A program made the translations under genes and the position numbers. DNA of 64,000 bases from Acinetobacter sp. WCHAc010034 (GTDB taxonomy: Bacteria; Pseudomonadota; Gammaproteobacteria; Pseudomonadales; Moraxellaceae), in the NCBI RefSeq assembly GCF_001696615.3, contig NZ_CP032279.1:2418001-2482000 (forward strand), written 5' to 3'. The notes below the pieces were generated by a model. That model ran no database searches, was not told where the DNA came from, and worked only from the letters and a program-made list of their open reading frames with translations. Below, in pieces: positions 25,698 through 60,776 of this stretch. The number at the start of each line of letters is the position of its first letter. Position 1 is the stretch's first letter.

Positions 25698-25871
25698 AAT
25701 GTCAGTCAGTTAAGCATTTTTAATCCTCCCCAACCCTCCTTTTTCAAAGGAGGGAGCGTTTCGAAATTCAATACGGTATTGAATTCAAGGGGGTTCCCCT
25801 CTTTTTCAAAGAGGGGTTAGGGGAGATTTATCAATTTGTAACAATGAAGTTGCGCTTAATTGATCAGCATT
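25698..25871 (+). repeat. Intergenic repeat element A (about 174 bp)
   Basis: It begins AATGTCAGTCAGTTAAG and ends CTTAATTGATCAGCATT, the terminal pair shared with elements B and C. The interior is a nest of palindromes: CCCTCCTTT-TTC-AAAGGAGGG (25734-25754), AATTCAATAC-G-GTATTGAATT (25765-25785) and CCCCTCTTT-TTC-AAAGAGGGG (25796-25816). All are enclosed by an outer inverted pair AATCCTCCCCAACCC / GGGTTAGGGGAGATT. It starts 9 bp after the transporter stop. Flanks show only a weak repeat (CTGAGGAGGAGG before, CTGAGCGGAGG after). Confidence 0.7.
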
Positions 25872-25978
25872 ACTGAGCGGAGGCGGCCTTATAAAGCGCA
25901 GGGCAATCAAATTGCTGGAGCATGCCGGTTTGAGCGCAGGCTTAATTTGGCGGTTTTTGCTTTAGTTTTCAGTTTAAA

Positions 25979-25997
25979 AATTATTATAATCATTGGC
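25979..25997 (+). promoter_or_regulatory. Possible Fur-like site
   Basis: AATTATTATAATCATTGGC matches 14 of 19 Fur-box positions, 38 bp before the start of the small exported protein. AT-rich promoter sequence could give this by chance. Confidence 0.35.
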
Positions 25998-26034
25998 TTA
26001 TATTTATAAGTATATTTCAAGATCAGAGGGTGAC

Positions 26035-26574
26035 ATGAAAAAGATATTGGCTGCGTGCAGCCTGCTGCTGGCTTCATCTGCATACGCTGCGGACTGGACG
26101 CCGGTGTTTAAGGACTTTGAAAAAAGCTGCTTTGGCGATAATAAAGCGCTGCAGGCGGTAGATAAAAAGCTGATCGACTTTAAGCATACCAAGACTTCCG
26201 CCGAAGTGGTGGCGCATAAGGATGCGAAAGCCGGCAATTACGCGCATGTGCCTTTGCCTTACCGCAAGGACATGCAGCCTGCGGTAGCGAAGCCCTTAAC
26301 AGTGGATGAGGACTTTTATTCAGGCTATACGCAGGTTTATATCGGCTTGAATAATGCAACGGCCTACGGCTTGCCAATTTCCGGATACAGCCGCTATTCC
26401 GGCGCGGACAATGGCGTCAGCGGGCGCATTGTCCACTTTAAGCCGATGGCGGCGAAAAGCTTTAATCAGCTGAAAAAAATCCGCTTTCAGGAAGACGAGG
26501 AAATGGGCTTTCAGGGGGCAATCACCCGCAATAAAAAGGGCGAAGTTTTTTTAATCTGTGACCAGAGCACCTGA
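26035..26574 (+). CDS. Small exported protein of unknown function
   Basis: A 179-residue protein starting at the ATG at 26035, which has GAGGG upstream and opens a good signal peptide (MKKILAACSLLLASSAYAA). The mature part has two cysteines (SCFGDNK and the C-terminal LICDQ) that could form a disulfide, plus a glycine- and tyrosine-rich middle (FYSGYTQVYIGLNNATAYG). I do not recognise the family. Iron control is possible if the Fur-like site upstream is real. Confidence 0.72.
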   Translation: MKKILAACSLLLASSAYAADWTPVFKDFEKSCFGDNKALQAVDKKLIDFKHTKTSAEVVAHKDAKAGNYAHVPLPYRKDMQPAVAKPLTVDEDFYSGYTQVYIGLNNATAYGLPISGYSRYSGADNGVSGRIVHFKPMAAKSFNQLKKIRFQEDEEMGFQGAITRNKKGEVFLICDQST

Positions 26575-26594
26575 GCAAAAGCAGGCGCTGAAAA

Positions 26595-26624
26595 AGCCAA
26601 GACACCCCGGAAGGTGTCTTGGCT
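26595..26624. terminator. Terminator of kup (convergent)
   Basis: The perfect 12-bp stem AGCCAAGACACC / GGTGTCTTGGCT with a 6-nt loop is followed by T5 on the minus strand. It lies between two convergent genes. Confidence 0.88.
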
Positions 26625-26646
26625 GCGCATCTATCCAAAGCCGGCT

Positions 26647-28524
26647 TCAGATTTCAATCTGGCTGCCTAACTCAACCACCCGGTTGGTCGGAATCTGGTA
26701 GAAATCGCTGACCGGGCTGGTATTTTTCTGCATCGCAGCAAACAGCTTGTCGCGCCATGTATCCACTTTATGGGTCATATTCGGAATCAGCCTTTCCCGT
26801 GAAACAAAGAAGCTGATGTCCATTAAGTTGTACTCCAGCCCTAAGCTGTCAAAGGCCTTGCGCAATGCTCTAGGCAAATTCGGCTGTTCTTTAAAGCCGT
26901 AATTCAGGCGGATCCGGTAAAAGCCCTTATCCAGCGCCTCTGTTTCAAAGCGCATTTCTTCGCTGATGTAAGGCACTTCAGCAAAGTTTACCGTCACCAG
27001 CAGGTTGCGCTCATGCAGGACTTTGTTGTGCTTTAAATTATGCAGCAGCGCATGCGGCACCACATTCGGGGTTCCGGTGAGGAATACCGCATTGCCGCTG
27101 ACAGTCTGCGCGGTATCGCCCAGATATTCAATAAAGGTGACCAGCGGCAGGGTATCCTGCTGCAGTTTCGCCTGCAGCTTTTCCTTGCCTTTTTTCCAGA
27201 TCATCATCAGGCTGAACACGGTAATGGCGATGACCACCGGCACCCAGCCGCCAATCAGGATTTTCAGCATGTTTGAGCTGAGCAGAATCAGGTCAATGAA
27301 AATGAACGGCACAATAAACAGCAGGACTTTCCAGGTTTTCCACTTCCAGTAGCTGTAAGCCAGGAAGCCGACCAGCAGGGTGTCGCAGAACATGGTCACG
27401 GTCACGGCCAGGCCGTAAGCTCCGGCGAGGCGGCTGCTGCTTTCAAACAGCAGCACCAGAATAATAATCGAGATGAACAGCAGCCAGTTCAGGAGAGGAA
27501 TATAGATCTGGCCAATTTCAGAGTCAGAGGTGTGCTGAATGTTCAGGCGCGGCAGATAGCCCAGCTGAATGGCCTGCTTCGCCATGGAAAATACCCCGCT
27601 GATCAGCGCCTGTGAGGCAATGACGGCGGCTGCGGTCGCCAGCGCAATCATCGGATAGAGCAGGGCGGAAGGAACCAGCAGGTAAAAGGGGTTGGCAATC
27701 GCCGCCGGGTCGCGCAGCAGCAGCGCGCCCTGTCCGGCATAGTTCAGAATCAGGCAGGGCAGAACAATCAGGAACCAGCCCAGACGGATCGGGAATACGC
27801 CGAAATGCCCCATGTCCGCATACAGGGCTTCGCCGCCGGTCACGGTTAAAACCACAGCGCCCATGACAAAAAAGGAAATCAGCGGATTATTGACCACGAA
27901 CAGGATGGCCCAGTGCGGGCTGATCAGGGCCAAAATAAACGGGCTTTGAATAATGCTGCTGATGCCGAGCGCGCCGATGGACAGGAACCAGACCAGGGTG
28001 ACCGGGCCGAAAAACTTGCCCATAACTGCAGAGCCGTGCTTCTGCACAACAAACAGGCCAGTCAGAATGCCGATGCTGATGGGAATGATGAAGCGGTCAA
28101 AAGCCGCCGTGGCAATCGACAGGCCCTCCACCGCAGACAGCACGGATATCGCAGGGGTGATGATGCCGTCGCCGAAAAACAGAGATGCTCCGACAAAGCC
28201 GAGAACCACAATGGTCAGCTTTCTTCTGCTGGACAGCCCTTCCTGACGCAGGTTCAGCGCCAGCAAAGCCATGATCCCGCCTTCACCGTTGTTGTCGGCG
28301 CGCATAATGACGGTGACGTATTTCAGGGAAACGATCAGCATGATGGTCCAGAAGATTAAGGACAGAATGCCTAAAACATTGGCCTCATTAATCGGCATGC
28401 CGTGAGTCGCATGAAAGCTTTCCTTCAGCGCATATAGGGGACTGGTTCCGATATCCCCGAATACGACCCCCAGCGCGGCTAAAGTCATTGCCGGCAAGGC
28501 GGGCTTATAGGTGTTATTTTGCAT
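26647..28524 (-). CDS. kup: Low-affinity potassium transporter Kup
   Basis: A 625-residue K+/H+ symporter of the KUP/HAK/KT family. The N-terminal signature [17 protein letters not shown] is near residue 18. About 12 membrane helices follow (including [19 protein letters not shown] and [13 protein letters not shown]), then a cytosolic C-terminal domain of about 160 residues. Kup imports potassium at the inner membrane. It is monocistronic, with a terminator shared with the convergent gene. Confidence 0.95.
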
Positions 28525-28722
28525 GACATGAAAATCATAAGTGGAAGTATGCTTGGAATTTTAGCATTAGCGCAGGGGGGAAAGCGGTTGTGCGTAAAAA
28601 ACCATGATTTCCATAAACTTAATAGTTTTTGTTGCTTATTTGTTAATAAAAAAATAATCAAAATCATCGGCTTGCTTCGGCGCTTGAAAATGCGCAGATG
28701 GCGGATGGAAAGCCGGCGAAAA

Positions 28723-28750
28723 AAAACCACCCGGCCTTGCGGCCGGATGG
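28723..28750 (-). terminator. Terminator of ackA-pta
   Basis: The stem CCacCCGGCC / GGCCGGatGG with a TTGC loop is followed on the minus strand by T8, 20 bp after the pta stop. Confidence 0.85.
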
Positions 28751-28769
28751 CGAGTATAAGCGGAAATTA

Positions 28770-30911
28770 TTATTGTGCGCTCTGCTGCTCAGACTGAATG
28801 GCGGTCAGGGCAATGGTGAACACAATGTCATCGACCAGCGCGCCGCGCGACAGGTCATTCACCGGCTTGTTCAGGCCCTGCAGCATCGGGCCGACGCTGA
28901 CGACGTCGGCTGCGCGCTGCACCGCTTTATAAGTGGTGTTGCCGGTGTTCAGGTCAGGGAAAATAAACACATTGGCGCGGCCGGCGACTTTGGAGTCCGG
29001 CGCCTTAGAGCGGCCGACGCTTTCCACAGACGCTGCGTCATACTGCAATGGGCCGTCAATCAGCAGGTCAGGGCGGCGCGCCTGAGCGATGCGGGTCGCT
29101 TCAGCGACTTTCTCGACTTCTGCGCCAGCGCCTGAAGTGCCGGTTGAATAGGAAATCATCGCGATGCGCGGGTCAATGCCGAAGGCCTTGGCGGAGTCTG
29201 CAGACTGGATGGCGATTTCCGCCAGCTGCTCAGCGTCCGGGTCCGGGTTGATCGCGCAGTCGCCGTATACATAGACTTCATCCGGCAGCAGCATGAAGAA
29301 CACTGAAGAAACCAGCGAATATTCAGGCGCAGTCTTAATCAGCTGGAACGCCGGGCGCACGGTATTGGCTGTGGTATGCACCGCACCGGACACCAGTCCG
29401 TCGACTTGATCCAAAGCCAGCATCATCGTGCCTAAAACGACGGTATCCTGCAGCTGCTCGCGCGCCTGAAGCTCATTGATTTTGCCTTTGCGCAGCTCCA
29501 CCATTTTTTCAACATAGTTGCCGCGGATCAGGTCAGGGTCAATGATTTCCAGGTCATACGGCAGTTCAATGCCACGCGCCTTCGCTACTTCAACCACCGC
29601 TTCCGGCTTGGCCAGCAGCACGCACTGCGCAATGCCGCGGGACTGGCAGATGGCCGCAGCCTGCACCGTGCGCGGCTCATCGCCTTCAGGCAGCACAATG
29701 CGCTTTTTGGCCGCAATGGATTTCTGCACCAGTTCATGGCGGAATGCGGAAGGCGACAGGCGCGGCTTGTAAGAGCCGTTGATCAGCTGGGTCAGCCAAG
29801 CTGGATCGATGTGGCTGGAAACAAAGCGCGTCACCTGTTCGGCGCGCTCGGTATCATCCACAGGAATTTCGTTGCTTAAATTGGCCAGTTCCTGCGCGGT
29901 TTCAAAGGTGCTCAGCGGCGTGTGCACAATCGGCAGGCCCTGCTTAATTGCGGTCTGGCAGAAGTCCAGCACCTGCTCATTCGGCTGATGGTGCTCGGTC
30001 AGCACCAGTCCGGCCAGCGGAATGCCGTTGCTGTTGGCCAGGCTGCTGGCCAGCAGCACGTCAATGCGGTCAGAGGCGCTGATGATCAGTTCGCCAGCGA
30101 CAAATTTATGCAGCTCATGCTCAATATTTGAGGCGATCAGGCTGCTGTGCAGCACGCGGCGCTGCTTGGCTTCGCCTTCATTGATCCAGTGCGCGGAAAT
30201 ATGCGCGGCCAGATCCGACATGCGCGGCACGCTCAGCGTGTTGCTGAACGGCACCAAGCCAATGACCGGGAAAGCTTCAGTGCCGATATTGGCATTATGC
30301 TTTTTCAGTTCCGCGGTAAAGCTGTTGATGTCGCTGATCAGGCGCAGGTTCGGATCAAGCGTCACAGGAACCTGCGCAGCGCCTTCCGGCAAGCCTTTAG
30401 TGCGCATGAACAGCGCGCCTGCAGTGCGCGCATTGCAGGCGCCGCCGAAATGGCGCAGCTGCGTTTCAATTTTTTCAGCTGCCGCTGCCGGGTTGCGGAT
30501 ATCAGCGGTGCTGACAATCAGCACTTTGGCGTCCAGCGCTTTGGCCAGATCGGCATTCAATTGAGAAGCAAAGGCGTCGCGGCTGGTCGGAACCAGGCCT
30601 TCAACAATAATTAAGTCGTGCTTTTTGGCGATTTCGCGGTGCAGGCGCACGGCATCTTCCAGCAGCTCGTCATTTTCATCATGGCTCAGGCGCCGCGTGA
30701 CGGCTGCATGGCTGATCGGTTCAACCGTTTCATTGCTGAATAAATGGCGGTACAGGGCGGTGGTGCGGTCTGCTGCGGCCTGCGGCTCTTGCGAAAAAGG
30801 CTTCACAAACCCAGCTTTAATGCCCTGGCAGTCCAGCGCGTAAATCAAGCCCAGGCATGCAGATGTCAAGCCTACGCTTTCCCCAGTTGGCACGAGTAAA
30901 ATTGTTTTCAT
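28770..30911 (-). CDS. pta: Phosphate acetyltransferase, long form
   Basis: A 713-residue enzyme that converts acetyl-CoA and phosphate to acetyl-phosphate and back. It is the long proteobacterial form: an N-terminal P-loop-like/BioD-related domain (VPTGESVGLTS at the start), a middle DRTGG domain, and the C-terminal catalytic PTA domain (from about residue 390, with VLPEGDEPRTVQAA, GAVHTTANTVRPAFQ and SYSTGTSGAG). It follows ackA by 59 bp on the same strand, the usual acetate node order. Confidence 0.95.
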   Translation of the reverse strand: MKTILLVPTGESVGLTSACLGLIYALDCQGIKAGFVKPFSQEPQAAADRTTALYRHLFSNETVEPISHAAVTRRLSHDENDELLEDAVRLHREIAKKHDLIIVEGLVPTSRDAFASQLNADLAKALDAKVLIVSTADIRNPAAAAEKIETQLRHFGGACNARTAGALFMRTKGLPEGAAQVPVTLDPNLRLISDINSFTAELKKHNANIGTEAFPVIGLVPFSNTLSVPRMSDLAAHISAHWINEGEAKQRRVLHSSLIASNIEHELHKFVAGELIISASDRIDVLLASSLANSNGIPLAGLVLTEHHQPNEQVLDFCQTAIKQGLPIVHTPLSTFETAQELANLSNEIPVDDTERAEQVTRFVSSHIDPAWLTQLINGSYKPRLSPSAFRHELVQKSIAAKKRIVLPEGDEPRTVQAAAICQSRGIAQCVLLAKPEAVVEVAKARGIELPYDLEIIDPDLIRGNYVEKMVELRKGKINELQAREQLQDTVVLGTMMLALDQVDGLVSGAVHTTANTVRPAFQLIKTAPEYSLVSSVFFMLLPDEVYVYGDCAINPDPDAEQLAEIAIQSADSAKAFGIDPRIAMISYSTGTSGAGAEVEKVAEATRIAQARRPDLLIDGPLQYDAASVESVGRSKAPDSKVAGRANVFIFPDLNTGNTTYKAVQRAADVVSVGPMLQGLNKPVNDLSRGALVDDIVFTIALTAIQSEQQSAQ

Positions 30912-30970
30912 AATGCATCTAAATTAAAAAATAAAATGTACAACTCAATGGCGTGCTGGAAGCCGCTGCC

Positions 30971-32194
30971 TTAGGCAACCGCTTCCTGCTCCGCGTCAGA
31001 CTTTTTTGCAGCAGCGGCAGCCTCTTGCTCCACAACATGCTGGGTTTCTTTGGCAATGCGGCCTTCTTCGTCAGTCGGCACTACCCAGATTTGCGGGCCG
31101 GTGCCGGCATCGATGCGGCCTTCGGTGCCGCGCTTCAGGCCGTCATTTTTCTCTTTGCTTAAGCTGAAGCCGAAGTGCGGCAGGTATGCCATGGTTTTTT
31201 CACGGATGAAAGCCGAATTTTCGCCAATGCCGCCGGTGAAGAACAGGCCGTCCAGGCGCGGCAGGCCGCAGCTGAGGGCAGCCAGCGATTTCGCCAGGCG
31301 GTAGCAGAACACTTCAATCGCCAGCGCAGCATCTTCGTTGCCCTGTTCAGAGGCTTCAATCAGCGTGCGCATGTCATTCGACAGGTTGTCCGACAGGCCC
31401 AGCAGGCCGCTGTCCTTATTCAGCATCCGGTCAATTTTATAGACATCCCAGCCCAAGTTGGACGCAAGGAAGCTGTGCAGGCTCGGGTCAACATCGCCGC
31501 TGCGCGTGCCCATGACAATGCCTTCCAGCGGGGTCAGGCCCATTGAGGTGTCAACGCTTTGGCCGTTCCAGATGGCGCAGGTTGAGCTGCCGTTGCCTAA
31601 GTGCGCAGTCAGCCAGCCGCCCTGCTTCAGGCTGCCCGCCAGCTCTGAGCCGCGCTCAGAAACATAGGCATGGCTGGTGCCGTGGAAGCCGTAGCGGCGC
31701 ACATTGTGTTCGGTGTACAGGAATTTCGGCACCGCATAGCGGTAGGCATGCGCCGGCATGGTTTGGTGGAATGCGGTGTCAAATACTGCAACTTGCGGCA
31801 GCTCCGGGAACAGGCGCATGGTCGCATCAATGCCGACCAGATGCGCAGGGTTGTGCAGCGGCGCCAGCGGCGTCGCTTCGCGGATGCGCGCAATAATTTC
31901 AGGGGTCAGCAGTTCCGCTTTGGTCAGCGTGCCGCCGTGCACCACGCGGTGGCCAATGGCCTGCGGGTTGTAGTGGGATAAGCGCTCAAGAATGGTTTCC
32001 AGCGCTTTTTCATGGCCGGCATTCGGAATCGCCAGTTCCAGCGCTTCGCCGCCAGCGGTGATGCCTTTAATTCGGGCCTCAGCTGAACCTAGGTTCTCCG
32101 CCAAGCCAAAGATACGGTCTTCACGACGTTCAGAAACCAACGCATATTTAATTGAAGAAGACCCGCAGTTAATTACCAATACTGATGTAGACAC
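30971..32194 (-). CDS. ackA: Acetate kinase
   Basis: A 407-residue acetate kinase that makes ATP and acetate from acetyl-phosphate. The ASKHA-fold motifs are clear: [13 protein letters not shown] at the N-terminus, HRVVHGG, the FDTAFH loop, [22 protein letters not shown] and [13 protein letters not shown]. The C-terminus carries an Ala/Glu/Lys-rich tail (about 18 residues) beyond the usual end. With pta it sets the acetyl-phosphate pool. The upstream 300 bp holds no other gene. Confidence 0.96.
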
Positions 32195-32475
32195 GTTTTC
32201 TTACCCGAATTCTAATTAAATTATTTGTCCATGATGTGATCTGAACGCTGTGCTTCTTGGCGCAATTTAGATCAGTGGCTATAGTTTTAACACGTGCTGT
32301 TTTTCTGTCCTAGATAGACTTTAGCAGATTAGACTTAAGCACTATCGACCCATTTGGCAACAATAATTAAAATTTATCAGTTTCGAATTTCCATTTATTA
32401 ATGAAATAGTACTCTAGGCTTCAATGCTTTGAAGCCCCGCATTCAACATAGCATGCTTCACTGCGCTGTACACTG

Positions 32476-32502
32476 AAAAACCATAAAAAAATTATGGTTT
32501 TT
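32476..32502 (-). terminator. Terminator overlapping a stop codon
   Basis: The perfect 11-bp stem AAAAACCATAA / TTATGGTTTTT with a 5-nt loop overlaps the stop codon of the small membrane protein (minus strand) and gives a T run on either strand. Confidence 0.8.
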
Positions 32503-32896
32503 GATATTTAATTTCTGACCAGCGCACAATTACATAGGCAATCAGCGCCACCATGAAAAACACCAGCATCATCCAGACCAGGCCCTGCAGGGTTTCAATC
32601 ACCGTCCGGTAAGTTTCCAGAACCCAGCGCTCGGGCGTCAGCTCAATCACAATTTTTCTATCATTGCCGGCATAGGTCAGCGGGGTGATGTATTTTTCCA
32701 TGTCATAGATGCGGATGCCGGAAGACGTGCCCACCACCATGCCGGCAAACTTGGTGTATTTGGCCCATGCGTCATGAATCGGGTCGTGAATGATGCGCGC
32801 CAGAATGGCCTGAATCGAGCCGGAAAATACGCGCATCACCAAAAAGGATACGCCCAAGGCCAAGGCAAATGTGCTGATCATCAGATAATAAAACAT
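32492..32896 (-). CDS. Small inner-membrane protein of unknown function
   Basis: A 134-residue protein with one hydrophobic helix at each end (MFYYLMISTFALALGVSFLVMRVF and LVWMMLVFFMVALIAYVIVRW) and a soluble middle of about 80 residues containing WAKYTKFAGMVVGTSSG and VIELTPERWVLETY. The start at 32896 is chosen for the AGGAGC ribosome site just upstream; the frame stays open 29 codons further. I do not recognise the family. It lies downstream of proA on the same strand. Confidence 0.72.
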   Translation of the reverse strand: MFYYLMISTFALALGVSFLVMRVFSGSIQAILARIIHDPIHDAWAKYTKFAGMVVGTSSGIRIYDMEKYITPLTYAGNDRKIVIELTPERWVLETYRTVIETLQGLVWMMLVFFMVALIAYVIVRWSEIKYQKP

Positions 32897-32985
32897 AGAA
32901 GCTCCTGAGCTGTTGTTATTGTTGAGCGCAAGCATGAGTTCAGTTTTAATTGAATCAGATTTTGAAGGGAATTTCTGCAGCAAAT

Positions 32986-33013
32986 CCGTTCAGCCCCGCG
33001 CGGGACTGAACGG
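32986..33013 (-). terminator. Long hairpin after proA
   Basis: The arms CCGTTCAG / CTGAACGG continue inward as CCCGC / GCGGG with one bulge. The structure lies 33 bp after the proA stop and lacks a clean T tract. Confidence 0.5.
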
Positions 33014-33046
33014 CTTCTATTTTTCAGGAGAATAATAGGGGAGCAA

Positions 33047-34312: not shown

Positions 34313-34615
34313 AGCGGTTTGATCACTTAGAAATTTCAATTTGATATTAACAGCCTATAACTGCACAATGAAGCAGCAGGATTGAATTTCAGGCAGAAAA
34401 TGAAAATCTTATTAACAATTTGAAATCGTTTTCTGCGCTAAAAGCGGATGAGTGGCAGCATTAGCAGTTGCTTGTAAAAACCTCTCCTGTATAGAATGAA
34501 ACGCAGCTGACATTGACGTCATGCAAATAACAACGAAAGAGCAGGATGCTTGCCGCAGGCAGCTCTCATTACTTTTCTGCACAATAAAAATAAGGCAGGA
34601 ATGGAGGAAAGGAAC

Positions 34616-35944: not shown

Positions 35945-35972
35945 CTTTGTCAGCATCAATCCGCTTTACAGC

Positions 35973-48274: not shown

Positions 48275-48313
48275 AATGCCAGTCAGCCAAGCGGCTGGCT
48301 GGCATTTTTTTGG
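48275..48313 (+). terminator. Terminator of fabI, similar to a repeat-element left end
   Basis: The stem AATGCCAGTCAGCC / GGCTGGCTGGCATT (one G-T pair) with a 4-nt loop is followed by T7. The left arm continues as AATGCCAGTCAGCCAAG, 15 of 17 identical to the left end of elements B and C. No right end was found nearby. Confidence 0.85.
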
Positions 48314-50499: not shown

Positions 50500-50606
50500 T
50501 GATGTTTCTCGTGTTTTATCGGGCTGATAATATTTATATTGTTGAATTTAATCAATTGCTTATTTTTATTTATTGCTGAAAGTGGCTTTTGCTGCGCTGA
50601 AGCGCT

Positions 50607-50709
50607 AATGCGCCGGCTTCAGCTTTTTGATTTTAAAAGGCAAGGCTCCGCAGTGACGGGCTGGAAAGTTCAGGCGCTTAGAGAAAAACGCTTAAAGTGA
50701 TCGGCATTA
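50607..50709 (+). repeat. Intergenic repeat element F (short, degenerate)
   Basis: A remnant of the repeat family seen at A-D. The left end AATGCGCCGGCTTCAGCTTTTT is degenerate. The internal block GGCAAGGCTCCGCAGTGA matches the block GGTAAGACTCCGCCGTGA of element B, and the right end reads CTTAAAGTGATCGGCATT against CTTAACTGATCAGCATT. Confidence 0.5.
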
Positions 50710-50740
50710 AGCCATCCTTTTTAAGCCCAGGCTTCAAAGT

Positions 50741-51157: not shown

Positions 51158-51230
51158 TGCGGTATCGCTATGAATAATTCAATAAAGAGTTCAATTTAAG
51201 CATTTTTTTATTGTTTCAGCATAAAAAAGC

Positions 51231-51241
51231 AGCCCCGCTTC
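51231..51241 (+). repeat. Left copy of the direct repeat flanking element B
   Basis: AGCCCCGCTTC is repeated exactly at 51541-51551. The pair looks like a target-site duplication of 11 bp. Confidence 0.65.
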
Positions 51242-51243
51242 CT

Positions 51244-51540
51244 AATGCCAGTCAGTTAAGAAATTGACTGGCATTTTCTTTTTAAATTCTAGAATTTATT
51301 TGATACGCGGAAGAGTCATCCGCAACCTATCTGGTCTTTGAAATGGACTGTTTTTGCAACAAAATTATTTAAATGCAGAAAGTGAACAGGTTTCGCGGAT
51401 GACAAATGCTTTTGGTTCTTTTGGCGAAACAAAAGAACAAAACGAGCTCCAAAAATTCGATTTAAAAACGGTAAGACTCCGCCGTGAATAGCCCCAAAAA
51501 TTAAGAAGTTTATAGTGAAACTTCTTAACTGATCAGCATT
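51244..51540 (+). mobile_element. Repeat element B (297 bp), MITE-like
   Basis: It begins AATGCCAGTCAGTTAAG and ends CTTAACTGATCAGCATT (14 of 17 inverted matches). The left hairpin TGCCAGTCA / TGACTGGCA (51246-51273) is followed by TTTTCTTTTT. The right hairpin TTAAGAAGTTT / AAACTTCTTAA (51501-51528) precedes the right end. The interior has further palindromic segments, such as GTTCTTTTG / CAAAAGAAC, but no reading frame worth annotating. Exact 11-bp direct repeats flank it, and the two arms of an older hairpin (CAGCCCC at 51230-51236 and GGGGCTG at 51553-51559) sit on either side. Confidence 0.72.
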
Positions 51541-51558
51541 AGCCCCGCTTCTGGGGCT
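51541..51558. terminator. Terminator-like hairpin right of element B
   Basis: AGCCCC-GCTTCT-GGGGCT is a full hairpin whose left arm is the right copy of the direct repeat. Before insertion it would have been followed on the minus strand by CTTTTTTATG, which now lies on the far side of element B. Confidence 0.55.
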
Positions 51559-51870: not shown

Positions 51871-51873
51871 ATG

Positions 51874-52515: not shown

Positions 52516-52540
52516 ACGGCAGCCGCTTCATTAAGGAATG

Positions 52541-53731: not shown

Positions 53732-53750
53732 AGTGATCCTTGCTGAGGGG

Positions 53751-54182
53751 TTAAGCGCAATAAGCCGCTGCTTCAATTTCAATCTGCATGCCGGCTAAAG
53801 CAAGGCAGGGCACAGGAATCAGCGTGCATGCCGGAAAAGCGCTATTTTTCCACAAATCCTGCATGTGCTGAATCAGCATTTGATGTTTTTCCGGGCTGTG
53901 TCCGGCAATTAAAATCCGCAGCGTGGCGATATCCGGCAGCGCGGCGTCCGCAGCCTGCAGCGCCAGCTGCAGATTGGCAAAAGCCTGCTGCAGCTGCTGT
54001 GCGAAATCATTGCACAGCAGGCCCTGCTGGTTTTCACCGCCTTGGCCTGAAATATGCACGATTCTGCGGAAATTGCGGGCAATTGCGATATGGCTGTATG
54101 CGTACGGTTCCGGATTATACAGGGTATTCGGGCTGAATAGCTGTATGCAGGGGTGCGGCGCAGAGGCCTCATGGTGCGGCAT
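53751..54182 (-). CDS. RidA-family protein lacking the canonical Arg
   Basis: A 143-residue RidA/YjgF/UK114-fold protein (SHIAIARNFRRIVHISGQGG, QAFANLQLALQAADAALPDIATLRI, IEIEAAAYC). Canonical imine deaminases carry a conserved Arg in a PAR(S/T) motif before the last strand; here that segment reads FPACTLIPVP, with Cys instead of Arg. It therefore probably belongs to a Rid subgroup without 2-iminoacid deaminase activity. It is first in an operon with the MFS gene and lies downstream of the SoxR-type promoter. Confidence 0.85.
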   Translation of the reverse strand: MPHHEASAPHPCIQLFSPNTLYNPEPYAYSHIAIARNFRRIVHISGQGGENQQGLLCNDFAQQLQQAFANLQLALQAADAALPDIATLRILIAGHSPEKHQMLIQHMQDLWKNSAFPACTLIPVPCLALAGMQIEIEAAAYCA

Positions 54183-54214
54183 GGTTTATCCTGAGCAGAT
54201 GTGGAATTTCTGCT

Positions 54215-54245
54215 AGTATCAAAGCTCAAGTTAACTTGAGGTCAA
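54215..54245 (-). promoter_or_regulatory. SoxR-type promoter of the RidA-MFS operon
   Basis: On the minus strand a -35 TTGACC (54240-54245) and a -10 GATACT (54215-54220) are separated by 19 bp, the over-long spacer typical of MerR-family targets. The SoxR box lies in this spacer. Confidence 0.85.
54224..54241. promoter_or_regulatory. SoxR box
   Basis: GCTCAAGTTAACTTGAGG matches the enterobacterial soxS operator (CCTCAAGTTAACTTGAGG) at 17 of 18 positions and ends 11 bp before the soxR ATG. Confidence 0.9.
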
Positions 54246-54252
54246 CAGCAAA

Positions 54253-54750
54253 ATGCAGGAAAAAATAAATTCTTGGCTCAGCATCGGCGATTTAGCCGCC
54301 CGCAGCGGGGTCAGCGCGGCGGCGCTCAGGTTTTATGAGGAAAAGCAGCTGATCTGGAGCACCCGCACTTCCGGCAACCAGCGCCGCTACCCGCGCGCGA
54401 TGCTGCGCCGCATCGCCATCATCAAGATAGCGCAGCAGGTCGGCATCAGCCTGCAGCAGGTGCATGAGGCCTTTGCTGCCCTGCCGGAACAGAAAACTCC
54501 GGCCCAATCAGACTGGCGCAGCATGTCGCAGCGCTGGCAGCAGCAGCTGGATCAGCAGATTATTCATTTGCTGCAATTGCGCCAGCAGCTGGATCAATGC
54601 ATCGGCTGCGGCTGCCTGTCACTGCAGCAGTGCCCGCTGCGCAACCCGGAAGATCAGCTGGGGCTGGAGTCGGCCGGCGCGCATTTTCAGGAGGTGCTGA
54701 TGAGCTTAAAGGAACTGGCGCCGAAGCAGCCGGATGATGGCCAGGATTGA
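54253..54750 (+). CDS. soxR: Redox-sensing activator SoxR
   Basis: A 165-residue MerR-family regulator. The N-terminal winged helix (LSIGDLAARSGVSAAALRFYEEKQLI, then the RTSGNQRRY wing) is followed by a dimerisation helix and the 2Fe-2S-binding cluster Cys116, Cys119, Cys121 and Cys127 (CIGCGCLSLQQC), the exact SoxR spacing. It is divergent from the RidA-like/MFS operon and shares the promoter region containing the SoxR box. No soxS is present, so SoxR probably acts directly on the efflux operon, as in most non-enteric bacteria. Confidence 0.95.
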   Translation: MQEKINSWLSIGDLAARSGVSAAALRFYEEKQLIWSTRTSGNQRRYPRAMLRRIAIIKIAQQVGISLQQVHEAFAALPEQKTPAQSDWRSMSQRWQQQLDQQIIHLLQLRQQLDQCIGCGCLSLQQCPLRNPEDQLGLESAGAHFQEVLMSLKELAPKQPDDGQD

Positions 54751-54762
54751 ATTTTTCCAGGC

Positions 54763-54785
54763 AGCCGCGCGCCAGCGGCTTTAAT
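54763..54785. terminator. Short hairpin between soxR and an EamA gene
   Basis: The stem AGCCGC / GCGGCT with a 6-nt loop, then TTAAT, overlaps the end of the convergent transporter gene. It is weak. Confidence 0.4.
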
Positions 54786-55713
54786 CCGCACGGGCCAGCT
54801 TGTTTTTGGAGAGGCTGATCATCAGCACGCCAATGATGTTTAACAGGCAGCCGAACCATTGCCAGCCGTTCAAATGCTCATCTAAAAAAGCCACGGCCAG
54901 CAGAATGGTTAAGACCGGGCCAACCGAGGCGATCATCGCCGACTGGGCCGCGCCTAAGCGGGCAATGCCCTGCATCAGCAGCACTGTCGGCAGCACCGTG
55001 ACAAAAAGCCCCAGCGCAGCGCCGTAAGCGAAAACGCTCAGCGGCAGCTGCTGCATCAGCTGCAGCGGCGCCGGCACGGCCAAAGCGAAATGCGCCAAAG
55101 TGCCAATGCAGGCGATGCTCAGCGCCAGGCCGGTAAAATGCCAGGAGCCGAATTTCAGCATCAGCCTTGGCGCCGTCAGCAGATAGGCCGCAAAGGCCAC
55201 CGCGCTGGCGAAGACCAGGCTTGCACCCAGCCAGAAATTGCTGCCGTGCGGGCTGCTGCTTTGCTCCTGCAGCATCACGATGAGCGTGCCGCCGTAGCTC
55301 AGCGCAATCGCAAAAATGCTGGCCCAGCGCAGCTTCTGCTTATAAAGGATGCTGGAGGCTAAAACCGTCAGGGTCGGATATAAAAACAGGATGATCCGTT
55401 CCAGTGAGGCGCTGATATGCATCAGCCCCTGAAAATCCAGCCAGCTGGCCAGATAATAGCCCATGAGGCCGGACAGGATCAGCAGGCCCCAGTCCTTGGC
55501 CTGAACTGCGCTGTAGTCCCTGCGGCTGAGCCAGCTGATCAGCAGGAAAAACGGCAGCGCGCTGGCCATGCGCAGCGCCATCAGCACCGTGGCGTCGACC
55601 TGCGGCGACAGCGCGTAGGCCTGCTTGATGAAAATCGCCTTGGTGCTGAATAAGAACGCGGCGCAGATTGCGCAAAGCGAACCTGTCTGCGTGCGGGTCA
55701 GGAGGAGCTGCAT
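54781..55713 (-). CDS. EamA/DMT-family transporter, second
   Basis: A 310-residue drug/metabolite transporter with ten predicted helices and two EamA repeats (first helix LCAICAAFLFSTKAIFI; second repeat from SLVFASAVAFAAYLL; late helix ILLAVAFLDEHLNGWQWFGCLLNIIG). It converges with soxR. It is not closely similar to the transporter at 24.8 kb by eye. Substrate unknown; the context gives no further clue. Confidence 0.87.
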   Translation of the reverse strand: MQLLLTRTQTGSLCAICAAFLFSTKAIFIKQAYALSPQVDATVLMALRMASALPFFLLISWLSRRDYSAVQAKDWGLLILSGLMGYYLASWLDFQGLMHISASLERIILFLYPTLTVLASSILYKQKLRWASIFAIALSYGGTLIVMLQEQSSSPHGSNFWLGASLVFASAVAFAAYLLTAPRLMLKFGSWHFTGLALSIACIGTLAHFALAVPAPLQLMQQLPLSVFAYGAALGLFVTVLPTVLLMQGIARLGAAQSAMIASVGPVLTILLAVAFLDEHLNGWQWFGCLLNIIGVLMISLSKNKLARAD

Positions 55714-56634
55714 GGCCGGGTCATTCCTGCAGAAGCGTCAATAAGATGGCAAGATTATAGAAAGCATGGCTTAAAACTTGAAATGTAAAATAAGAATAGG
55801 GGCTATTCCTAAAAGGCATGCTGTATTATTGGCGGTTATTTAAGCTAATAAACGCGCATTCAGCCGGTTTTTTTCATGCCTGCCTGCCGGCTTGACTTTT
55901 TTAAGCGCGCTGCAGCGCAGCCGCCAGCCAGTTTTCAGCATCAGCGCGCCGTTTTCTGCACTAAAAAGATGCGTAATCAGCCATTTGAGGCCAAACGGCG
56001 CCGGGTTCATCATGGTGCAAAATATTCAAAAAAATATTTTTTAATTAATTTTTCTGCAGATCTGGCTGAATCCGCAGATAAAGAATGCGGATGAAGCGCG
56101 CCAAAGCAGCCCGCCGGGCGCAAAATTCCGCCGCCGAATCTGACTGGCTGAAATGACTCAAAGCCTGAAATTTCCGGCCAACTGTATGCGGATGCAGGCA
56201 AATGCATTTTGTCAGTGCAGCCAATGCCTGTTTTGACGGTTTTAAAATACACTGAATTGCGCGGGAATCCGCGGCATTTCCGGCTGGATTCAGCCTGCGC
56301 GCTGCGCCGGCGCCTGCTGTCAGAAAGATCAACCGCTACCTGCAAGACAGCCGCTTCCCAGCGCAGAAGGAGCGGCCCAAGCTTGAAATTCGGCTGAAGA
56401 GGCGGATTATGCATAAAAAATATTCATAGCATTAGAAATAAAAATGAATAAGTTGAATATCTCATCATATTTTTTATGAATCATCAGTTCAAAATGTGGG
56501 TATTTATTAAATAAATATTGGGTGGTAATTTAAAACAGTTCAATTAGAATCCAAAAATTCAACAAGAACTCATCCTGAGGGGAAGCATCGTTTCAACGCT
56601 GCTTGCTGAAGAACAACTAGCTTGAGGAACGCTC
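55714..56634. other. Long intergenic region upstream of pntAA
   Basis: About 920 bp without a convincing gene; the open frames on both strands lack ribosome sites and family resemblance. A perfect 12-bp inverted pair, CATAAAAAATAT (56412-56423) and ATATTTTTTATG (56467-56478), is separated by 43 bp and lies about 160 bp before the pntAA start. The last 100 bp are AT-rich and probably hold the pnt promoter. No copy of the repeat family was found here. Confidence 0.5.
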
Positions 56635-57762
56635 ATGCAGATCGGAATTCCAACCGAAACTGTCGTCGGTGAAAATCGCGTCGCTGCGACGCCTGAGACA
56701 GTAAAGAAGTTGATCAGCGCTGGTCATAATGTGGTTATTGAAGGTGGAGCTGGGCTTAAGGCTGCCTACATCGATAGCGCTTATGAGCAGGTTGGCGCCA
56801 AAATTACAGATGACGCCTATGCCGGCAGTCAAATTATTTTGAAAGTCCGCGCCCCGAAGGGTGAGGAAATTCAAAAGCTTGCACCGAATACCGCAGTCAT
56901 CGCAATGTTTGACCCCTACCGCAATCCCGAGCTGGACCAGTTTGCTGCGCAGCAGGTATCGGCATTTGCGCTGGAACTGCTGCCGCGCACCCTGTCGCGC
57001 GCGCAGAATATGGACGTGCTGTCTTCTCAGGCCAATCTGTCAGGCTATAAATCTGTACTGCTGGCGGCTGCGGAATATCAGCGCATGTTCCCGATGCTGA
57101 TGACCGCTGCCGGCACGGTAAAGCCTGCCCGCGTGGTGATTATGGGCGTGGGCGTAGCCGGCCTGCAGGCGATTGCAACCGCCAAGCGCCTGGGCGCCGT
57201 GGTTGAAGCCACCGATTTGCGCCCGACTGCGCGCGATCAGGTGGAATCGCTGGGCGGCAAATGGCTGGACGTGCCGATGTCTGATGAAGAAAAGCAGAAA
57301 GCTGCCGACGCCGCCAAAAACGGCTACGGCTGGATGCCGGGCGAACAGTACATCAAAGATCAGGCCATCATTGTTGATAAAGCGGTCGCCAATGCCGATA
57401 TCGTGATTACCACAGCCTTGCTGCCGGGCCGCGATGCGCCGCGCCTGATTAAGGCGGAAACGGTAGCCAAAATGAAGCCGGGTTCTGTGATTTTAGACAT
57501 GGCGGTGGAAACCGGCGGCAACGTGGAAGGCTCTAAATGCGGTGAAACCGTCATGACCGGCAACGGCGTGAAAATCCTCGGCATTCCGAATATCCCTTCG
57601 ACTGTTTCGACCGAAGCTTCGGCGCTGTATGCGCGCAATGTTTTGAACTTCCTGGATACGCTGTTCGATGCAGAGAAAAAATTCGCATTGAACCCGGAAG
57701 AGGAAATTCAGAAAGCCCTATTGGTCACTCACGGCGGCCAAGTGCTGCTGAAGCGCGGTTAA
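56635..57762 (+). CDS. pntAA: NAD(P) transhydrogenase subunit alpha part 1
   Basis: A 375-residue soluble NAD(H)-binding subunit (domain I) of proton-translocating transhydrogenase, which moves hydride from NADH to NADP+ using the proton gradient. It shows [17 protein letters not shown] at the start, [21 protein letters not shown], the Rossmann [21 protein letters not shown] and the mobile-loop-like [10 protein letters not shown]. The start has GAGGAA in good spacing. In the split form found here, the membrane part of alpha is a separate gene (next), as in Rhodospirillum. Confidence 0.95.
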
Positions 57763-57773
57763 GGAGCATCATC

Positions 57774-58094
57774 ATGGTTGAAACTATTACTATTTTCGTC
57801 TTAGCCATCTTTGTGGGCTATTACGTGGTTTGGGGCGTAACGCCTGCCTTGCATACCCCGCTTATGGCGGTGACCAATGCCTTATCATCGATCATCGTGG
57901 TCGGCGCAATGATTCAAACCGTAGGCATTCCAGGCATTGTGGATGCAAGTGTGCAATTTCAAAGCGTCAATGTGGTGAGCATCTTAGGCGCGGTTGCGGT
58001 GTTCTTAGCAAGTATCAACATTTTCGGCGGCTTCGCGGTAACTGCGCGCATGCTTGAAATGTTCAAGCCAAAGCAAAAGAAAAAAGAGGGCTAA
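57774..58094 (+). CDS. pntAB: NAD(P) transhydrogenase subunit alpha part 2
   Basis: A 106-residue membrane subunit with three or four helices ([55 protein letters not shown]). The conserved [16 protein letters not shown] segment lines the proton path of domain II. It sits 11 bp after pntAA and 3 bp before pntB. Confidence 0.95.
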
Positions 58095-58097
58095 TAC

Positions 58098-59552
58098 ATG
58101 GAATTCATTCGAGACTATGCGGATTGGTTCTACCTGATCGGTGCTGTCCTCTTTATTTTAACCTTGCGCGGTTTGTCGGGGCCTAAGACGGCAATTCAAG
58201 GCAACCGCTACGGCATGATCGCCATGGCGATTGCTGTCGTGACCACCTTCTTTGTAGCGGATCATCCGGTGATTTGGATGATTGGCGGCGCGATGGTGCT
58301 GGGCGCAATTGTGGGCATTGCCCGCGCGCGCACTGTACCTATGACACAAATGCCGGAAACTGTGGCTTTAATGCACTCATTGGTGGGCTTAGCTGCGGTG
58401 CTGATTGCGATTGCCGCCATTCTGCATAACAACCAGCTCACCGCTTTATTTGCGCAAAATGAAGCAGCCTTAACCGCTGCCGGCGTGCAGCATGCGCATA
58501 TGAGCAAGGTGCATTTATTTGAACTGTTTGTGGGCTGTTTTGTCGGTGCGATTACCTTTACTGCATCTGTATTTGCCTATGGCAAGCTGGCTGCGAAAAA
58601 ATGGGCAAAAACCATTTCCGGCGCATGGGTTAAACCGGTTCAGGCGCTGATTTTCCTTGCCATGCTGGCCTGCGGTGTGTACTTCTTCACCACAGGCAAC
58701 ATGAATGCATTCTGGGCCATGACTGTACTGGCATTGGCATTCGGCTGGGTGTGGATTGCGCCAGTCGGCGGCGGCGACATGCCGGTAGTGGTATCGCTTC
58801 TGAACTCTTTCTCTGGCTGGGCTGCGGCGGGCATCGGTTTCACCCTTGAAAACAATATGCTGATCGTTGCCGGTTCACTGGTGGGTTCTTCAGGCGCAAT
58901 TCTGTCCTACATCATGTGCAAAGCCATGAACCGTTCAATCATCAATGTTTTGTTTGGCGGCGCAATGGGCGGTACTGCGGTTGCTGCTGCGGACAAAGGC
59001 GAACAGGCGCAGCGCAACCACCGTTCCGGTTCAGCAGATGACGCAGGCTTCCTGATGTCAAATGCAGACAGCGTTGTGATTGTGCCGGGTTACGGCATGG
59101 CGCAAGGCCGCGCGCAAAATGCCGTGAAAGAACTGTGTGAAATCTTGAAAGAGCAGGGCGTAAAAGTCCGCTTCGCGATTCACCCGGTTGCTGGCCGCAT
59201 GCCGGGCCACATGAACGTACTGTTGGCTGAAGCAGACGTGGCTTATGAAGACATCTTGGAAATGGATGAGATTAACTCTGACTTCCCTGCAACAGATGTG
59301 GTGCTGGTGATTGGCGCAAATGACGTGGTCAACCCTGCAGCTAAAGATGACCCAGCATCTCCGATCTATGGCATGCCGATTCTTGAAGCGCATAAGGCGC
59401 GCACCATTATGGTGATCAAGCGCTCTATGGCGACAGGTTATGCAGGTCTAGACAACGATTTGTTCTATAACGAAAAAACCATGATGATTTTCGGTGATGC
59501 GAAGAAAGTGGTTGAAGACATGACCAAAGCAATCAATGGTGGTGGGCACTAA
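58098..59552 (+). CDS. pntB: NAD(P) transhydrogenase subunit beta
   Basis: A 484-residue subunit: an N-terminal membrane domain of about nine helices, then the soluble NADP(H)-binding domain III (SVVIVPGYGMAQGRAQNAV, IHPVAGRMPGHMNVLLAEADV, VLVIGANDVVNPAA, VIKRSMATGYAG). It is last in the pnt operon. Its probable terminator appears to be split by repeat element C: the left arm at 59569-59576 and the right arm at 59916-59923. Confidence 0.95.
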   Translation: MEFIRDYADWFYLIGAVLFILTLRGLSGPKTAIQGNRYGMIAMAIAVVTTFFVADHPVIWMIGGAMVLGAIVGIARARTVPMTQMPETVALMHSLVGLAAVLIAIAAILHNNQLTALFAQNEAALTAAGVQHAHMSKVHLFELFVGCFVGAITFTASVFAYGKLAAKKWAKTISGAWVKPVQALIFLAMLACGVYFFTTGNMNAFWAMTVLALAFGWVWIAPVGGGDMPVVVSLLNSFSGWAAAGIGFTLENNMLIVAGSLVGSSGAILSYIMCKAMNRSIINVLFGGAMGGTAVAAADKGEQAQRNHRSGSADDAGFLMSNADSVVIVPGYGMAQGRAQNAVKELCEILKEQGVKVRFAIHPVAGRMPGHMNVLLAEADVAYEDILEMDEINSDFPATDVVLVIGANDVVNPAAKDDPASPIYGMPILEAHKARTIMVIKRSMATGYAGLDNDLFYNEKTMMIFGDAKKVVEDMTKAINGGGH

Positions 59553-59568
59553 GATCTGAAAAGTATTT

Positions 59569-59586
59569 AAAACCATTCTCCGGGAT
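59569..59586 (+). terminator. Left arm of a split pntB terminator
   Basis: AAAACCAT followed by the loop TCTCCGGG and AT. The matching right arm ATGGTTTT with its T run is at 59916-59925, beyond element C. Confidence 0.6.
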
Positions 59587-59904
59587 AATGCCAGTCAGTT
59601 AAGAAATTGACTGGCTTTTTCTTTTTAAATTCTAGAGCCATTCAAATAGATCTGTTTCATAAGTCAATAAATGATCATTAATTGGCAGTAAAATTAATAT
59701 TGAAAGTTCCTTCTCCCTTTGGGAGAAGGTTAGGATGAGGGGATTTTTTCAATAAAATCCTCACCCTGAGCGGTATTCCGCGCAAGTCTCCTTAAAAAGG
59801 AGAGGGAATTTCCATTGTGAATTAAATGCTGTTTAAAAAAAATTGTATAGCTTGTATTTTTGGTAAAAGTCTTTTATTGAAAAACTCCTTAGCTGATCAG
59901 CATT
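59587..59904 (+). mobile_element. Repeat element C (318 bp), MITE-like
   Basis: It begins AATGCCAGTCAGTTAAG and ends CTTAGCTGATCAGCATT. The first 43 bp are nearly identical to element B, including the hairpin CCAGTCA / TGACTGG, its T-rich tail and TTTTTAAATTCTAGA. The interior differs from B: it carries a palindromic CCTTCTCCC / GGGAGAAGG block (59708-59730) and a TCTCC...GGAGA block, a style resembling element A. Flanks ATTCTCCGGGAT (59575-59586) and ATCCTTCGGGAT (59906-59917) agree at 10 of 12 positions, suggesting an old target duplication. Confidence 0.72.
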
Positions 59905-60319
59905 AATCCTTCGGGATGGTTTTTTGTTTATGGCAATCCAATATCCGAAAGGCCGTGAAATTTTTATCTGAGTACGCTCCAAAGCGCTGAGATATTGTGT
60001 ACTTTTATAAAAAAAATTAATTTTTGATTCAATATATATTCTTGCTGATGCTGGCTTTTAAGGCACTGTATTTAATGTGCTTTTAAGTTGGTTAAGCGGC
60101 TTTTAGCTGTGTTTTCTTGATGCAGAATGGCCAAATTTAAAGAGTGTGCGTATCAAAATATAATCAAAATACAGCTGAACTATAATAAAGATAAAGCAGA
60201 AAAATTGTCAGAATAGCGGTATCGCATGGCTGATATATCGCTGTGACTGAATGCGCGGGTTGGCTGCGCTTCTGCATGGCTGTAGGCCAGGTGCGCTAAT
60301 CAGCAGCGGGAGATGGCTT
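59905..60319. other. AT-rich intergenic region
   Basis: It opens with the right half of the pntB terminator (ATCC-TTCG-GGAT, then GGTTTTTTG). The rest is AT-rich, with no gene recognised on either strand. The promoter of the DUF3303 gene is probably in the last 150 bp. Confidence 0.5.
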
Positions 60320-60610
60320 ATGTTATTTATTGTTAGGTACACTATCTGCTCAGGGAACCGCAATGCGGCGATGGAGCGCTTTCTGCAGACTGGAGGGAAA
60401 GCGCCTGCCGGTGTGGAAATGCTGGGAAGATGGCATGCTGTAGCGCAGCGCTCAGGCTTTGCAGTCATTGAGGCGAATGATGCAGAGCTGATACAGCAGT
60501 GGGCAATGGAGTGGAACGATCTGCTTTCTATGGAGATTTGTCCTGCTTTAACTGATGATCAAATGGGGCCGCTGATGTTCGCCACGCTCGCAAAGAAAGA
60601 GCATACTTAA
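60320..60610 (+). CDS. DUF3303-like protein
   Basis: A 96-residue protein with the DUF3303 pattern: an N-terminal strand MLFIVRYTI, then FLQTGGKAPAGVEMLGRWHA, GFAVIEANDAELIQQW and WNDLLSMEICPALTD. The fold is probably a ferredoxin-like dimeric alpha/beta barrel. Function unknown. The start at 60320 has GGGAG upstream; an open frame extends 23 codons further without a family match. Confidence 0.8.
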   Translation: MLFIVRYTICSGNRNAAMERFLQTGGKAPAGVEMLGRWHAVAQRSGFAVIEANDAELIQQWAMEWNDLLSMEICPALTDDQMGPLMFATLAKKEHT

Positions 60611-60680
60611 GGAATCTGAATTGCTTTGCGAAGCAGCAGCCTACTAAGATTGCCAGCGCTGAAAATCCATCCTTCAGAAT

Positions 60681-60776
60681 AATGCCGGCCAGTTAAGCAA
60701 TTGGCTGGCTTTTTCTTGGCGGATTTAAAAATGCTGAGCCTGCGCCGTGAATGGCCAAGCAGTTAAGGCGAATGCT
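60681..60776 (+). repeat. Intergenic repeat element D (short form, about 96 bp)
   Basis: The left end AATGCCGGCCAGTTAAG is followed by the compensated hairpin GCCGGCCA / TGGCTGGC and TTTTTC. The internal block GCGCCGTGAATGGCC matches CCGCCGTGAATAGCC of element B. The right end (GTTAAGGCGAATGCTAA) is degenerate, so the end coordinate is approximate. Confidence 0.55.

Follow-up and report, generated by a model that had tools for sequence, protein, structure and literature searches.

What are the short, non-coding repeats that lie between genes in this stretch of the Acinetobacter sp. WCHAc010034 genome, and how did they come to be there? The window analysed here is a 64-kb stretch (C13:2418001-2482000) of a 3.84-Mb genome, referred to below as the own genome (G000). 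A preliminary description, made from the letters of the window, had singled out three intergenic elements with shared inverted termini (A, B and C), two shorter relatives (D and F) and a terminator downstream of fabI that resembles a lone left end. We propose that A, B and C, together with the decayed copies D and F and the fabI end, are very probably miniature inverted-repeat transposable elements (MITEs), which are moved in trans by a DDE transposase of the IS4 subgroup and insert at the cores of palindromic hairpins.

Paired termini and target duplications recur across the genome

The full ends of the family read TAATGCCAGTCAGTTAAG (left) and CTTAACTGATCAGCATTA (right). They are complementary at 15 of 18 positions, which upholds the earlier view of imperfect inverted repeats. 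In the own genome, the left end matches at 127 sites when up to three mismatches are allowed (11 for the reversed control), and the right end at 62 sites with up to two (none for the control). Left and right ends lying no more than 1.5 kb apart form 53 pairs, extracted from 70 loci and the window, and the termini do recur as pairs genome-wide. A 54th pair, which spans 2.1 kb and contains other inserted sequence, was left out of all counts.

The pairs measure 174-175 bp (eleven), 188-189 bp (four), 201 bp (two) or 296-300 bp (fifteen), and the others 152, 213, 291, 312-465, 1138 and 1243 bp; 51 of the 53 fall between 152 and 465 bp, while the two long ones hold another insertion sequence (IS). 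Sorted by motif, 25 pairs are of type B, 18 of type A, three of type C and three of type E, and one is a chimera of A and C. The remaining three have no type by this measure; by eye, L043 is C-like, and L042 and L055 are B-like. The types have their ends in common and little else, and such differing interiors would be accounted for if recombination, nested insertion and deletion changed the internal sequence. The terminal inverted repeat (TIR) of the left end is followed, in types B and C, by an inner inverted copy of itself, giving a hairpin of 11-14 bp and then a T-rich tract. The count of 24 solo left ends in the own genome overstates the true number, given that several of them, by eye, are this inner copy of an element's own left end.

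Direct repeats of 10-13 bp give the best fit at 45 of the 53 pairs. A duplication score was passed by 37 of the 53 true pairs, compared to 21 of 2756 mismatched pairs, in which the left and right flanks were taken from different elements. Perfect repeats of at least 10 bp flank 18 true pairs and none of the mismatched ones.

An IS4-type element carries the same ends

Among 175 genomes of the genus, the own included, the exact right end is present in 30 (again counting the own genome), with no match of the control. One locus was taken from each of the 29 other genomes, and 24 of these have a left end (at most three mismatches) that completes an element of 174-363 bp, so the paired ends extend to relatives. 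Of the five remaining loci, three lack a left end (one of them at a contig start), one is doubtful (five mismatches), and one, in genome G047, proved to be an IS of 1390 bp (L074/L136). Both of its 18-bp ends are exact, with no mismatch, and it is flanked by a 12-bp duplication, CTGCCATTGCAG. It encodes an intact protein of 434 aa on the minus strand, whose stop codon lies inside the left TIR. The protein contains the Pfam domains Nterm_IS4 and DDE_Tnp_1, is 38% identical over 415 aa to the E. coli IS4 transposase InsG, and carries the Y-(2)-R-(3)-E-(6)-K motif (YIQRWEIEMCYREIK); none of the solved structures matches it by sequence.

Profile searches returned 104 Nterm_IS4 matches in 21 of the 175 genomes (at most 22 per genome, some partial). 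Of 30 loci fetched from these, 22 hold IS-length copies readable at both ends, seven lack two ends and one runs off its contig. Twenty of the 22 readable copies have the TAATGCCAGTCAGTTAAG end and measure 1389-1393 bp, the other two (both in G105) have diverged ends and measure 1423 bp, and an in-frame stop was found in one copy (L124) of the 22. In some copies, the leftmost 38 bp are fully identical to the left end of element B, and type B therefore looks derived from such an IS end.

The preliminary description had recognised no named element; this can now be sharpened, as the window elements are, judging from their sequence, MITEs of the IS4 subgroup. Pairs, duplications and an IS with identical ends together support a mobile, non-coding family with common inverted termini, and mobilisation in trans by an IS4-type enzyme would follow from the shared ends. 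A transposase gene bordered by the same ends, which the description had suggested looking for, exists in the relative G047 and is missing from the own genome. Since no such gene is present there, the MITEs of the window's genome are probably immobile now, or mobile only when an IS4-type element visits. From the hairpin-rich ends and interiors, one might instead suppose that the hairpins are acted on by a site-specific recombinase or by a transposase of the HUH/REP type. Such a route is very improbable in view of the 10-13 bp duplications and of ends identical to those of a DDE element of the IS4 subgroup; to our knowledge, HUH elements make no target duplication.

Insertion into terminators and other hairpin cores

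The IS copies show most clearly where the family lands. With one duplication removed, each of the 22 sites folds into a hairpin with the duplicated stretch at its centre (mean -15.0 kcal/mol), and 21 of them have AAAA on the left and TTTT on the right, an arrangement seen at 27 of 1760 positions drawn at random from the same loci. These sites are intrinsic terminators, typically AAAAAGCC-CTCAATTGAG-GGCTTTTTT. The duplications are perfect in 19 of the 22 copies and have one mismatch in another, and measure 10-12 bp in the 20 copies that have one.

The MITE sites are less cleanly at terminators than those of IS-length copies. A stem with an A or T tract is present at 33 of the 53 sites (56 of 1872 random positions) and both tracts at 20 of them (1.05% of random positions), and the mean fold is -9.95 kcal/mol, compared to -6.2 and -6.9 kcal/mol in controls. 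A folding test was added because the stem score with its near-fixed centre missed clear terminators, for example at L018. An open reading frame (ORF) of at least 100 aa crosses 11 of 51 MITE sites, two further sites having too little flank, and 431 of 510 random positions.

An empty site, as sought in the preliminary description, was found for element C. The region 3' of pntB, where this element resides, is matched in 171 of the 175 genomes, and none of 29 relatives read there has element C in its printed stretch. By eye, 27 of the 29 show a complete hairpin with a T tract, and the other two were not printed that far. G137, the only one of these relatives whose match spans the whole query, has an intact terminator, CCATCCTTCGGGATGGTTTTTTT, at the empty site, which reads AAACCATCCTTCGGGATGGTTTTTTT. 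At the site of A, the 29 relatives read are too diverged to show an empty site; at that of B, good matches start at least 259 nt inside the query.

This bears on the possibility, named at the outset as one that would refute the family, that it is simply a terminator motif. One part of this holds, in an unforeseen way: B, C, D and the fabI copy have terminator-like hairpins at their left ends (folds of -16.6 to -26.7 kcal/mol), and insertion occurs into terminators; the word "simply" fails on the pairs, the duplications and the IS with the same ends. Repeats that are coincidental or purely structural and were never mobile would explain why several types have a left end that itself forms a hairpin followed by a T tract. 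They would explain neither the pairing nor the IS ends nor the empty orthologous site, and the duplication test speaks against them, which leaves this reading a negligible chance.

Among named genomes, at least 119 stretches contain the exact 18-mer end, mainly from Gammaproteobacteria and some from Betaproteobacteria among the matches listed. From named genomes, 39 non-redundant pairs with exact TIRs and duplications were collected, some of which are still near copies of one site (L218 and L244, for example). A centred hairpin is present in 33 of the 39. Non-REP sites with an A or T tract account for 23, and 12 have the core GGCTTGCC/GGCAAGCC, which we take to be typical of Pseudomonas repetitive extragenic palindromes (REPs); ten of these 12 lack tracts. 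Short elements of 78-223 bp were seen in Pseudomonas, Aeromonas popoffii and others. The left 600 bp of E. coli IS4 have matches in 2574 of 5426 E. coli genomes, with at least 80% covered in 1756. Fourteen of 60 listed matches and the K-12 locus were inspected, 13 of these 15 were readable, and they comprise nine distinct insertions, five of which lie in terminators (adhE in both orientations, eno, bamD and the typA side). With 22 of 22 IS copies in Acinetobacter and five of nine insertions in E. coli, the preference is strong in the former and partial in the latter. The IS4 target consensus AAA-N20-TTT and an IS4 insertion in the pheST attenuator are in line with terminators as targets.

A bias of this kind could also arise from survivorship, if insertion was widespread and only harmless insertions into terminators survived. 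The avoidance of genes at MITE sites agrees with this explanation, as do the three of nine distinct E. coli IS4 insertions that lie inside genes (yicI, ygeA and a gene for a Tn3-family transposase). However, intergenic DNA beside a terminator would be equally harmless, whereas the hairpin is centred on the duplication in all 22 IS sites, and REP-like palindromes, too, are entered at their centre. We therefore consider survivorship without targeting unlikely.

Elements A, B and C in the window

A, B and C were recovered at the coordinates and with the termini first described, except that the true ends are one base longer (TAATG...CATTA). Within the window, the left pattern matches seven times (0.12 expected) and the right pattern six times (0.79 expected), each with at most three mismatches; these counts include left ends that match the reversed right pattern, and vice versa. 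At six element-bearing loci, no Rfam family reached its gathering score. The features are as follows, all on the plus strand.

25685..25696 (+): left flank of A, CTGAGGAGGAGG, within an AAGGCC...GGCCTT stem; the duplication is weak, its best register 7/11
25697..25872 (+): element A, type A MITE, TAATGTCAGTCAGTTAAG ... CTTAATTGATCAGCATTA, with interior hairpins CCTCCTTT/AAAGGAGG and CCCCTCTTT/AAAGAGGGG
25873..25883 (+): right flank of A, CTGAGCGGAGG
51231..51241 (+): left copy of the B target duplication, AGCCCCGCTTC
51243..51541 (+): element B, a MITE of type B; AATG to CATT spans 297 bp
51243..51284 (+): left end of B, where the 18-bp TIR and its inner inverted copy form a 14-pair hairpin, then a T-rich tract; terminator-like, inward-facing
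51499..51541 (+): right end of B, hairpin that continues into the TIR of this end (for the type, GTTAAGRAGTTT/AAACTYCTTAAC), -9.8 kcal/mol
51541..51551 (+): right copy of the B target duplication, AGCCCCGCTTC, inside the hairpin CAGCCCC-GCTTCT-GGGGCTG
59575..59586 (+): left copy of the C target duplication, ATTCTCCGGGAT, 10/12 identical to the right copy
59586..59905 (+): element C, a MITE of type C
59587..59625 (+): hairpin and T tract at the left end of C, terminator call at 59590-59615, -16.6 kcal/mol
59906..59917 (+): right copy of the C target duplication, ATCCTTCGGGAT, followed by GGTTTTTT

The terminator call at the left end of B covers 51244-51275 (fold -19.5 kcal/mol, z -6.3). The whole stretch scanned for terminators, in which B, C, D and the fabI copy were called, holds 31 terminator-like sites, compared to 19.7 in shuffles. 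In the right-end hairpin of type B, 90% of cells are paired; covariation is weak, and slid controls score equally.

Decayed copies and a solo left end 3' of fabI

Three further features of the window relate to the family.

48275..48310 (+): solo left end 3' of fabI, a hairpin of 14-15 bp followed by T7
50626..50709 (+): element F, the right 86 nt of B only
60680..60756 (+): element D, left end (60680-60717) and internal block (60722-60756)

Under permissive blastn scoring, D matches element B in its 38-nt left end (87%) and in a 35-nt internal block (83%), and no right end was found for it; F is 69% identical to the final 86 nt of B. D is a decayed, internally deleted B-type copy and F a decayed B-type copy, and the internal block that the two had been said to share is correct.

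The hairpin at 48275, 3' of fabI, is likewise a solo left end. It lies 20 nt past the fabI stop codon, is terminator-like and has the fold of -26.7 kcal/mol. Among 30 genomes read, of 169 matching, it is present in G000 only and in none of the 29 relatives. The solo end probably serves as the fabI terminator now and would be the best case of a family remnant put to this use; other family copies may likewise act as terminators for the host. Host genes that have come to depend on left-end hairpins could even be the reason for which the repeats are retained. That B, C, D and the fabI copy score as terminators at their left ends, and that the fabI solo end lies so close to its gene, agrees with such domestication. 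Type A copies, however, have no left hairpin, and the duplications indicate that spread by transposition came first. As the general explanation, domestication is possible but doubtful; it may hold for single copies besides transposition into hairpin cores.

Several relatives (L377-L405) have lone palindromic blocks 3' of fabI that resemble the interiors of types A and C, e.g. forms of CTCCCTTTTTTAAAGGGAGG and CTCCCTTTGGGAGAGGG, and this gene end thus gathers unrelated palindromic repeats. At L007 1500-1522 (G000:C13:1374123), a 23-bp remnant, comprising the left TIR and the last five bases, lies between diverged target duplicates in a terminator; it is a near-complete internal deletion or an excision footprint. 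The B-type element L111 (G110:C7 98730-99036) has the right-end variant TAATGCTGATCAGTTAAG at both ends, as if one end had been converted. In A. baumannii (L345, NZ_CP064203.1 3020511-3021502), the interior of element B is matched at 71% over 192 bp, and no MITE ends were seen by eye in 481 bases; this interior may have a life independent of the MITE ends.

Nested palindromes and second-tier insertions

The interiors of the MITEs harbour still smaller repeats, one of which lies in element C.

59767..59786 (+): micro-palindrome in C, TGAG-CGGTATTCCG-CGCAAG; the hairpin-free version has TAGCCC there

These micro-palindromes have the form TGAG-stem-loop-stem-CGCAAG and measure 20-21 nt, or 39-40 nt in longer forms. 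Their stems vary yet stay complementary, and they occur in both orientations and at many places. Among 95 distinct elements read (53 of the own genome and 42 of relatives), 37 carry a total of 62 copies. For 43 of the 62, the palindrome-free counterpart is known: the micro-palindrome replaces 6 nt (22 cases), 7 nt (12), 8 nt (2) or, in 7 cases, an 11-nt stretch that itself reads TGAG..CGCAAG. Genome-wide, the pattern exceeds its control in G000 (85 vs 7), G064 (107 vs 5) and G174 (109 vs 9) and is at control level in some genomes, such as G006. The micro-palindromes recall the very small mobile repeats of Nostoc, and they may be more unusual than the MITE family itself.

The 1138- and 1243-bp pairs were considered as autonomous copies and rejected, given that their ORFs match DUF4096 and DDE_Tnp_1, not Nterm_IS4, and lie at a CTAG inside the MITE. 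At L029 and L054, both in G000, different insertions with fragments of IS5-type transposases (DUF4096, DDE_Tnp_1) occupy the same CTAG in the left part of the MITE, which suggests that a second, site-preferring IS group uses MITEs as targets.

Discussion

We envisage that an IS4-subgroup DDE transposase moves the MITEs in trans and inserts them at the core of a palindromic hairpin, which is duplicated in the process; in Acinetobacter, these hairpins are intrinsic terminators for all 22 IS copies and for most MITE copies. The enzyme would recognise the palindromic core, as a DNA dyad or an extruded hairpin, rather than transcription termination as such, given that REP-like palindromes without A/T tracts are also used in Pseudomonas. 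Insertion would cost little, since the duplicated stretch is the hairpin core and a stem is thus retained on either side, next to the A or T tract found there. In types B, C and E, moreover, the hairpin of the left end faces inward, resembles a terminator and can stop read-through. Landing in terminators may have been the route to about 50 copies in one Acinetobacter genome with little damage to genes.

Several observations weigh against this account. A good duplication is missing from 16 of the 53 MITE pairs and a clear stem from several sites, with element A of the window among these cases; the pairs failing the duplication score are consistent with old copies, which is no proof. A centred hairpin alone is present at 46 of the 53 MITE sites but also in 273 of 525 control windows taken locally and 454 of 869 taken at random; this test is lenient, as 52% of control windows pass it. 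Two of the 22 IS sites have no duplication, yet both flanks are still terminator halves, and the 22 are not fully independent, as L129 and L146 resemble one site in two species. The left end of type A, as seen in element A, has no hairpin (-0.2 kcal/mol). A profile search found no Nterm_IS4 transposase in the own genome, which makes present mobility doubtful. Right end and transposase occur in the same genomes only modestly more often than expected (8 vs 3.6, P 0.012); leaving out G047, whose right ends are those of its own IS copies, the figures are 7 vs 3.5 (P 0.036), kinship being ignored in both. Lastly, four of the nine distinct E. coli IS4 insertions are not at terminators (the K-12 site, yicI, ygeA and the Tn3-family transposase).

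A broader reading, to which we incline by a small degree, holds that the IS4 subgroup is a lineage that targets hairpin cores and, in Acinetobacter, has intrinsic terminators as its main niche. The duplicated core would leave both half-sites terminating, the element would add an inward terminator, and such near-neutral insertions would let orphan MITEs accumulate, rewire gene 3' ends and host a second tier of replacing palindromes of about 20 nt.

The present analysis gives a name to an anonymous repeat family and shows the origin of many gene 3' ends in this genome. It also offers a simple landing rule for IS4-type elements, namely a hairpin core of which 10-13 bp are duplicated. A transposase that seeks terminators or palindromes would offer a way to place DNA next to genes while leaving these intact, and what happens when a terminator is split could be tested on the many orphan copies.

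Comparison with known systems

The family agrees with the MITE class in lacking a transposase ORF of its own, in its TIRs (15/18 complementary) and length (152-465 bp in 51 of 53 pairs), in its target duplications (37/53 vs 21/2756 in the control) and in having an autonomous relative with the same ends, the G047 IS. Among the titles and abstract openings of the papers listed, in a search whose coverage left out most subscription journals, neither a description of the family nor terminator targeting by IS4 was found.

Other MITEs with TIRs and duplications are known from Acinetobacter. MITEAba12 measures 111-114 bp, is flanked by 9-bp duplications and has ISAba12, with a 16-bp TIR, as its proposed parent; the passages available from its source do not mention a preference for terminators (PMC6382973). 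We dropped it as an identity on length and duplication size (113 bp and 9 bp). MITE-297 and the integron-flanking MITE, of 502 and 439 bp, are described in the same passages from Acinetobacter plasmids only (PMC6382973); they are set apart by these descriptions, MITE-297 being dropped on length and not by sequence.

REP/BIME units are palindromes of 20-40 bp with a GTAG tag at one end, according to the part of the source available (PMC3733652), whereas the family here has TAATG...CATTA ends and units of at least 150 bp. The R0 and R2 repeats of Pseudomonas fluorescens are likewise MITE-like and intergenic, have inverted ends and lie preferentially at the 3' ends of genes; they measure 89 and 110 bp with inverted repeats of 24 and 43 bp, a comparison by description in the passages available rather than by end sequence (PMC2718517). 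ISRm22, an IS4-family element of Sinorhizobium meliloti, inserted at the axis of palindromy of a REP hairpin (PMC1525189), similar to the Pseudomonas elements reported here, which also enter palindromes at their centre. In the main text available, it differs in its 6-bp duplications and REP targets from the family here, with 10-13 bp and mainly terminators, and the word "terminator" is used once, not about a target (PMC1525189).

Members of the IS4 subgroup have -AATR ends, direct repeats of 10-13 bp and a typical length of 1400-1650 bp, as given in the available part of PMC2266710, whose main text there does not contain the words terminator, MITE or Acinetobacter. The parent IS has corresponding ends (TAATGCC...) and, in 20 of the 22 copies, 10-12 bp duplications. 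Its length, 1389-1393 bp in 20 copies and 1423 bp in two, lies at or slightly short of the typical range. It also has the protein features of the subgroup, with Nterm_IS4, a DDE domain and Y-(2)-R-(3)-E-(6)-K. The left end of E. coli IS4, TAATGCCAGTCAGTTAAG, is identical over 18 bp to that of the family, and its transposase is homologous to that of the parent IS; unlike E. coli IS4, the window elements carry no transposase.

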